Origin: Ureibacillus massiliensis 4400831 = CIP 108448 = CCUG 49529
GTDB taxonomy: Bacteria; Bacillota; Bacilli; Bacillales_A; Planococcaceae
DNA: 64,000 nucleotides
Direction: 5' to 3'
NCBI RefSeq assembly: GCF_000772965.1
Contig: NZ_JPVQ01000014.1
Location: 1-64,000 of the forward strand
The position numbers and the translations under genes are program-made. Shown piece after piece: positions 1,773 through 6,234 of the stretch (positions within the stretch are counted from its first letter, which is position 1; each line of letters opens with the position of its first letter). The notes beneath the pieces were generated by a model that was not told the origin of the DNA, made no database searches, and worked only from the letters and a program-made list of their open reading frames with translations.

Positions 1773-2735
1773 TTGTTATTGCTTGAACGAGAAAAGTCGA
1801 AGTCACTCATCGTGGCAGATGCGCTATTACGTCGACTTGAAACAAGTGATGACGACTACCCTTACTTTTACGAGGTCTCAAAACGTCTACATGCTGGGTT
1901 CGAAGGTGAAAAAATGGTTGATCGACATTGGTTCGAAATGACCAATCTCGAAAAACACAGTCTCTTTTTCAATTATGAACTTATGAATGAATTTGGATTT
2001 CCCCACCAAATTGACACACTTCTCCTCACTCCGAAATTTCTTTTCATCCTGGATATTAAACATATGAGTGGCCGTGTTGATTATGAAGAAGAGAAAAATC
2101 AATTTATTCGTACCCGACAAGATGGCGTTATTGAAAGTTTTTCAGATCCCGTAGCTCAAGTTTTGCGTCATGGGCAATATTTTGAAAGACTTTTCACCAA
2201 TTTGCAAATTACATTACCTATTGAATATGCAATTGTCTTTTCAAATCCTTCTACAATCATTGGACAAGTTCCGAAGAGTGTTCCCTTCTTCCATACAAGC
2301 GGTCTACGATTTCATGTTTCAAAATTACTATCAAAGCATTCACCTGTCCTGACCGAGAAAAGCTTAAATAAACTATCTAAGTTATTGTTGTCTTCTTTAA
2401 AAAGAAAGGATACAAAACCAGCTATCAGCATAGATCGCATTAAAAAGGGCGTGTTATGTGAAGCATGTAATTATCAAGTTCAAATGATTTATAAAAACAG
2501 AACTTGGTGCTGTCCAAAATGTGGCGTTCAAAACAAAAAGGCTTTTTATCAAGCATTAGATGACTATCGAATCCTCATTAACGATCGCATTAAAAACAAC
2601 GAGTTTCGTGACTTTTTTGAAATTGATTCTATGCAAATTGCTTCCAAAATTTTATCGCGGTTGGGGTTAGTAGCTGTAGGAGATAAAAAAGGGCGATACT
2701 ATATCATTCCAGAAAATATTGCAAGTAGGATTTGA
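1773..2735 (+). CDS. NERD-domain protein with C-terminal zinc ribbon
   Basis: The N-terminal two-thirds (about residues 35-150) resembles the nuclease-related domain (NERD): GFEGEKMVDRHW, FPHQIDTLLLT and FLFILDIKHMSG give the E...D...(E/D)xK pattern of the PD-(D/E)XK nuclease fold, here ending in DIKH. Residues 225-255 hold CEACNYQ and CCPKCG, a likely four-cysteine zinc ribbon. The role is unknown; NERD proteins are suspected DNA or RNA processing enzymes. TTG start is chosen because GAGGAGGTGAA lies just upstream. Single gene with its own terminator. The NERD assignment is firm from pattern, the nuclease activity is inference. Confidence 0.82.
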   Translation: MLLLEREKSKSLIVADALLRRLETSDDDYPYFYEVSKRLHAGFEGEKMVDRHWFEMTNLEKHSLFFNYELMNEFGFPHQIDTLLLTPKFLFILDIKHMSGRVDYEEEKNQFIRTRQDGVIESFSDPVAQVLRHGQYFERLFTNLQITLPIEYAIVFSNPSTIIGQVPKSVPFFHTSGLRFHVSKLLSKHSPVLTEKSLNKLSKLLLSSLKRKDTKPAISIDRIKKGVLCEACNYQVQMIYKNRTWCCPKCGVQNKKAFYQALDDYRILINDRIKNNEFRDFFEIDSMQIASKILSRLGLVAVGDKKGRYYIIPENIASRI

Positions 2736-2744
2736 TGTTAGGAT

Positions 2745-2778
2745 AAGAACCATTCTTGATTGGGTGGTTCTTTTTTAT
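2745..2778 (+). terminator. Terminator after the NERD gene
   Basis: Arms AAGAACCA (2745-2752) and TGGTTCTT (2765-2772) run into a T tract. Confidence 0.8.
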
Positions 2779-2845
2779 TTTTGGTGTGATTGTGATTGTG
2801 ATTGAGGTTGGGGTTATGCAGGGGGAGTCGAACTCTTTTCGGCTT

Positions 2846-3259
2846 TTGTCTATTATCTGCTTCCGTTTGTCTATTATCCCACTGCTTTTGTCTATTATCT
2901 CGAGCTCGCTTCTGCTCTTGTCTATTATCCACTCCTGTTTGTCTATTATCCCGCCACTTTTGTCTATTATCTTAAAGCCGCTTCTGCTCTTGTCTATTAT
3001 CCACTCCTGTTTGTCTATTATCTGCCCTAGTTTGTCTATTATCCCGCCACTTTTGTCTATTATCTCGAACTCACTTCCGCCCTTGTCTATTATTCGTCGC
3101 CGTTTGTCTGTTATCTGCCCCAGTTTGTCTATTATCCCGCCACTTTTGTCTATTATCTTAAAGCCGCTTCCGCCCTTGTCTATTATTCGTCGCCGTTTGT
3201 CTATTATCTGCCCCAGTTTGTCTATTATCTCGAACTCTCTTCCACTCTTGTCTATTACA
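2846..3259. repeat. 18-copy phased direct-repeat array, core TTGTCTATTATC
   Basis: Eighteen copies of the 12-bp core TTGTCTATTATC (minus strand GATAATAGACAA) lie head to tail. Core-to-core distances are 21 bp (twelve times) or 30 bp (five times) and nothing else. Two cores vary at their last base (TATTATT), one reads CTGTTATC, and the last is truncated to TATTAC. Spacers are GC-richer than the genome and themselves recur (CCGCCAC, CCACTCCTG, TGCCCCAG, TCGTCGCCG), giving a higher-order unit of about 93 bp (21+21+30+21) repeated roughly three times. The core has no dyad symmetry. The array sits in the convergent gap between the NERD gene terminator and the eno terminator. Confidence 0.95.
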
Positions 3260-3334
3260 GATCTAGAATTCTCTAAATCCGGAAGCTCTTTCTACTTCCG
3301 CTTATGATCCAGAATTACTCGCTTCTCAAAAGCA

Positions 3335-3366
3335 TAAAAAAACCGGGCTCCGCTACGGAACCCGAT
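3335..3366 (-). terminator. Terminator after eno
   Basis: Arms CGGGCTCCG (3344-3352) and CGGAACCCG (3356-3364) with one G-T pair; a T run follows on the minus strand. Confidence 0.85.
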
Positions 3367-3379
3367 TTCGAAAACTTAC

Positions 3380-6234
<2,855 letters not shown>

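Follow-up and report, generated by a model that had tools for sequence, protein, structure and literature searches.

An intergenic direct-repeat array with a 21-bp pitch at the 3' end of eno in Ureibacillus massiliensis and its counterparts in related genomes

The window, the whole stretch of 64,000 nucleotides of the Ureibacillus massiliensis genome analysed here, contains a non-coding direct-repeat array next to eno. The array holds its pitch and a conserved core, has multiple counterparts in its own genome, recurs in position at eno and gatB in other species, and belongs to a set of arrays amplified in blocks. Our leading interpretation, to which we give about an even chance, is that it is a member of a widespread intergenic class of helically phased arrays, most likely serving as a multi-copy, one-orientation platform for one or more putative DNA-binding proteins. 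We infer the binding protein, its coevolution with the cores and its insulating or architectural role from these patterns.

The array and its immediate surroundings

The array was composed of TTGTCTATTATC, a non-palindromic word of 12 letters, and was flanked by the intrinsic terminators of a convergent gene pair, a NERD-domain gene and eno (Table 1). The initial annotation had counted 18 copies of this word. The count holds if up to two mismatches are permitted, with 14 exact cores, three carrying one mismatch (at 3083, 3104 and 3176) and the last one (at 3248) carrying two. The core-to-core steps of 21 bp (12 times) and 30 bp (five times), together with the higher-order unit, were confirmed by pattern search and TRF. 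At the same tolerance, the full window contained 32 matches, against 12.5 ± 3.4 expected (0/100 shuffles). The spacers had a higher GC content than the core. The initial annotation had placed all cores on about the same side of the helix, which is approximate for the 30-bp steps (2.86 turns at 10.5 bp per turn).

Table 1. Coordinates of the array and its neighbouring features in the window
Feature	Position	Strand	Details
Phased direct-repeat array	2846..3259	+	18 TTGTCTATTATC cores; higher-order unit 93 bp = 3x21+30 (TRF)
Intrinsic terminator of NERD-domain gene, left of array	2745..2772	+	stem
Intrinsic terminator of eno, right of array	3339..3369	-	stem
eno (enolase; closes glycolytic operon), 3' end towards array	3380..4672	-	
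NERD (nuclease-related) domain gene, convergent, left of array	1773..2735	+	PF08378, E 1.2e-14
183-codon open frame across array, judged spurious	2756..3307	+	no Pfam match; frame varies between arrays

Several readings of the array were tried and rejected. Folding gave no hairpin signal in the window array (z of +3.2 and -0.45), and an Rfam search returned no match in it, two sub-threshold matches falling on the eno terminator; a hairpin or an Rfam family was thereby ruled out. Sigma-70 promoters showed no excess in the array over shuffles, so this reading was also dropped. Intrinsic curvature was not convincing, the predicted bends being modest (22-70 degrees per 63 bp compared with 145 for phased A-tracts, under assumed wedge parameters). 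Plasmid and phage collections yielded no BLAST match to the array, and five pattern matches on viral contigs.

Distribution in the genome and among relatives

Exact TTGTCTATTATC occurred 98 times in the genome (62 forward, 36 reverse), compared with 0 for the reversed control. The core is therefore not confined to one site, a possibility raised at the outset, and it also forms arrays in relatives. Within its own genome it built at least nine further arrays or array remnants, the largest with 45 and 33 units and several others smaller or degenerate. Each of these arrays kept a single orientation, and their higher-order units measured 93 bp (3x21+30) or 102 bp (4x21+18). Arrays were also seen at or close to contig ends of this draft genome (L025 1-218 and L028 2923-2995). 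This suggests that the arrays break short-read assembly and are under-counted.

Arrays were also searched for by position, with no core supplied. The 3' flanks of eno were drawn from 30 relatives and their autocorrelation was measured. A lag-21 array was present in 15 of the 31 eno flanks, window included (z 3.6-7.8, 0/200 shuffles), and in nine of 23 congeners not picked for arrays, each with its own core. The same core-free measurement found lag-21 arrays in 8 of 27 gatB 3' flanks, with cores varying by species. The position 3' of eno recurred in other genera. The NERD neighbour was undetected in many genomes that had the eno-side array, so the array tracks the 3' end of eno rather than its neighbour. 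In G013, whose enolase is identical to that of the window, only degenerate copies were left at eno, which indicates that arrays are freely gained and lost. An unsupervised scan covered 1.6 Mb of G013 and G021 for at least four units with a common 9-mer core and diverged spacers at periods of 15 to 60. It returned 16 regions at period 21, six at 42 (for the most part arrays already seen at 21) and 0-3 at each of the other non-multiple periods; the hits at 18, 27, 36, 45 and 54 were traced to a single coding repeat region. Across 444 kb of the window's own genome, which included one contig picked for its array, period 21 alone appeared.

Other repeat types were observed in the course of these searches. 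A second class of array, its unit being 52 bp or about five turns of the helix, occupied the eno 3' flank in G005, G008, G014 and G024 (L164, L168, L170, L178). The portion of G013 that was sampled had it at three loci (L230, about 2-3 kb into it; G013:C1 2923657 and 2956441). At the gatB 3' flank of G003 (L196), TTGTGCATTTA-like cores alternated at 20 and 21 bp, with a best lag of 41, equal to four turns of 10.25 bp each. CRISPR-like repeat arrays (ATTTCAATCCCTCATAGGTAAGATCAAAAC, 65-67-bp period) were present at G021:C1 827-841 kb (L264, L265), within the portion of G021 that was sampled.

The cores behaved as dialects spoken at one pitch. TTGTCTATTATC itself was found at 21-bp pitch with unrelated spacers in Ureibacillus manganicus (G011), Lysinibacillus odysseyi (G075), G013 and G090; G054 and G070 had fewer copies of it. 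A looser core search matched 16 of the 261 genomes of the family and brought out variants particular to lineages, including TGGCTAATA, TGTCCAATA and TGGCTATTA; most genomes lacked the TTGTCTATTATC core itself. Arrays at the 21-bp pitch with other cores were present in relatives (TTTGGCTAATA, TTTGGCGATTA, TTGGTGCGGAT, ACCGACCGATTAT and others), and the ACCGACCGATTAT dialect of G142 and G129 was exposed by chance through the reversed control pattern. G021 combined several related core families (TTGGCGGATT, TTGGCGATTA, TTGGTGCGGAT, CTTGCTCGGATA and TTGACTATTATC), and a core taken from its eno flank predicted more arrays elsewhere in the same genome. Overall, cores of roughly 10-13 bp were held at a 21-bp pitch, and the spacers of 9-11 bp were free. 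Core types can share one genome, as in Ureibacillus manganicus (L165, L103), where the eno array used TTGGCGATTA and arrays elsewhere used TTGTCTATTA. In G494, a genome from another family of the same class, three loci (G494:C1 3913335, 4193643 and 4354762) had arrays of GTGCAATTA at a 21-bp pitch, their spacers being variable; the phenomenon thus extends beyond the family of the window.

The gene context was surveyed at 42 non-redundant loci with both neighbours called, the gene calls being mechanical. A location between convergent genes applied to 14 of these loci and was not exclusive, as 23 were tandem and five divergent. The genes to the right of arrays included what we take, from our own reading of the sequences, to be eno, gatB, lpd (pdhD) and uvrC. 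Arrays initially seemed to prefer one orientation with respect to the gene downstream; after de-duplication this bias was not significant (p=0.07). The idea that orientation follows the replication direction was not supported, because two G013 arrays 33 kb apart were oppositely oriented; replication direction does not set the orientation of an array.

Constraint, growth and competing explanations

The core and the spacer evolved under different constraints. In 15 eno-flank arrays picked by gene, the best 10 positions of the unit had a mean identity of 0.93, whereas the other 11 had a mean of 0.43, and uniform decay was rejected at p<0.01 in 12 of the 15. The same picture emerged when G000 and G013 were compared at four orthologous array pairs. 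Core divergence (2-9%) was lower than that of the flanking DNA (roughly 4-11%), and spacer divergence (at least 5-32%) exceeded it in three of the four pairs. The pitch was restricted as well. Successive core distances clustered at 18-22, 29-30, 39-42, 50-51 and 60-63 bp, with almost none between. Steps quantised by the helical turn would agree with this clustering, which is taken as suggestive because shorter steps partly add up to 40, 51 and 61 and because the turn length is left unfixed: a helical-period fit of the odd steps did not discriminate between 9.5 and 11.5 bp per turn. The non-21 steps (18-19 and 29-30) were 50-100 degrees out of phase.

These observations bear on a neutral or selfish minisatellite, which would have no host function and would grow by slippage or unequal exchange, its 10-12-bp core providing the homology for slippage. 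Growth by recombination had been among the options of the initial annotation, and this part was borne out. Block duplication is indicated by higher-order units (93, 102, 103 and 124 bp) whose spacers are nearly identical within an array, and copy number differed between orthologous arrays (45 vs 24, 33 vs 26 and 20 vs 7). The gain and loss of arrays at eno and their location close to contig ends in the draft assembly also fit such a process. However, duplication copies core and spacer jointly, so it cannot alone leave cores about 93% and spacers about 43% identical; this asymmetry needs selection on the core or some unknown core-restricted conversion. The slower evolution of cores than of flanking DNA and the single 21 bp pitch across unrelated cores are likewise unaccounted for, and we regard the minisatellite as unlikely, though not negligibly so, as the full explanation. 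An RNA-level element, either a Rho-loading (rut-like) stretch or a row of protein-binding RNA repeats that ends antisense or read-through transcription, seems improbable. The core-strand RNA of the window array was rich in C and showed less structure than its shuffles did (z +3.2), and the array site lies outside the terminators. Nevertheless, Rho has no need of a fixed 21-bp pitch and Rfam gave the array no match. A Rho-site composition was rejected as inconsistent across arrays, the excess of C over G in spacers ranging widely (C-G skew -0.10 to +0.73).

Two further explanations have very little probability. If the 21 bp were seven codons, the arrays would encode heptapeptide repeat proteins. 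The steps of the window array are indeed multiples of three, with one open frame per strand, and some G021 arrays are open over hundreds of codons. The multiple-of-three periods did not survive as a general rule, since sister arrays had gaps of 40 and 61 bp and steps of 19, 20, 22 and 29 bp, the latter disrupting the frame. The open frame varied by array, many arrays were closed in every frame, Pfam gave no match, and differences among codon positions lacked the third-position pattern of coding DNA, so that a coding repeat is scarcely credible. It is slightly easier, and still highly improbable, to see the arrays as a molecular-drive element of the DNA-uptake-sequence (DUS) type, in which species-specific words are favoured by a transport or recombination machine. 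DUS and USS occur as scattered singles or as inverted pairs in terminators, not as direct-repeat arrays of fixed pitch, and we know of no uptake bias in the family of the window. In favour of this type, species-specific variants of a short, mainly extragenic word recall the DUS dialects (PMC3630211).

The binding platform is the reading that we prefer. An array for a directional DNA-binding protein had been suggested initially, and constrained core and pitch with free spacers are what such an array predicts, the protein itself being putative. In this model, a core of roughly 10-13 bp kept in one orientation at a 21-bp pitch (two turns of B-DNA) would line up a candidate protein along roughly one side of the helix, much as plasmid iterons do with replication initiators. 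In transcriptionally quiet DNA outside the terminators, a row of bound protein might have an architectural or insulating role, or might form a roadblock to read-through at gene ends. Array length would change as blocks of 3-6 units (about 93-124 bp) are duplicated or deleted, with selection preserving core and pitch. Core sequences differ among lineages and arrays, which is what changing recognition proteins would produce. The main difficulty is the presence of several core families in one genome (G021), which calls for several binders or a degenerate recognition rule. The loose pattern TTG-N(1-2)-C-K-R-W-T-W, our own summary of the observed cores, would be one such rule. Also counting against the platform are the free gain and loss of arrays, the out-of-phase steps, the non-significant orientation bias and the lack of the TTGTCTATTATC core in most genomes. 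More tentatively, we consider it possible that there is a family-wide undescribed system, with dozens of gene-end arrays per genome, shifting cores and a fixed 21-bp pitch, in which coevolving putative proteins would coat about one helix face and in this way insulate the ends of operons or organise them.

For more than two decades, interspersed intergenic repeats of the STAR kind have been on record without a function. Because one genomic position bears parallel arrays with differing cores in many species here, the fixed features (the 21-bp pitch and the site outside terminators) can be told apart from the free ones (the spacer and, over longer times, the core). Such a contrast points towards a protein that can be recognised, and it opens the question to testing. 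Should a coating protein exist, it would be a new addition to the factors that shape or insulate the chromosomes of Gram-positive bacteria.

Relation to described repeat systems

The element had been proposed as undescribed, and this stands for the searched literature, mostly without subscription journals, in which no published account of TTGTCTATTATC or of such family arrays was found. Among known systems, plasmid iterons (RepA, RepE, pi and TrfA origins) are initiator-bound direct repeats about two helical turns apart, in one orientation and with species-specific cores. The arrays share this pitch, and binding is predicted for them. However, they are chromosomal and spread over many loci, have free spacers and no plasmid or phage BLAST match, and the window array is neighboured by the NERD gene and eno instead of marking an origin beside a rep gene. 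REP/BIME elements of enterobacteria also occur in many extragenic copies near operon 3' ends, but REPs are hairpin-forming palindromic 20-40-mers, unlike the non-palindromic cores described here with their fold z values of +3.2 and -0.45. CRISPR arrays have palindromic repeats of 24-40 bp, unique spacers of about 30-40 bp and cas genes; the present arrays have a 21-bp unit and spacers inherited between species. Short words that differ by lineage are shared with DUS/USS, which lack direct-repeat arrays and a fixed pitch. Tandem arrays enlarged by block duplication are shared with prokaryotic satellites and minisatellites, although ordinary satellites lack both the core/spacer asymmetry and the fixed pitch across unrelated cores. 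A survey of prokaryotic satellites reported transposed non-coding families with long repeats in two species only (PMC6749651).

STAR of Staphylococcus has the core T(G/A/T)TGTTG(G/T)GGCCC(C/A), spacers of 40-44 bp and mostly single-copy loci, with dozens of loci per genome, strain-variable copy number and an abundance independent of phylogeny (PMC3532100). Its locus positions are not common to different species, and one locus flanks the glycolytic operon, upstream of gapR (PMC3532100). Both kinds consist of interspersed intergenic direct repeats with a short core, variable copy number and recurring or variable spacers, both occupy dozens of loci per genome in numbers that do not track phylogeny, and both use a glycolytic-operon flank, upstream of gapR in STAR and 3' of eno here. 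However, the 14-bp core TNTGTTGNGGCCC is replaced here by TTGTCTATTATC, the other dialects also lack TGTTGNGGCCC, and all dialects have a 21-bp unit in place of spacers of about 40 bp or more. The present arrays hold up to 45 cores, which change between lineages, and their eno and gatB positions are common to species, the eno position also across genera. Because core, pitch and cross-species positional conservation differ, membership in STAR is rejected, but STAR is the closest described kind, and the arrays are similar to it in kind.
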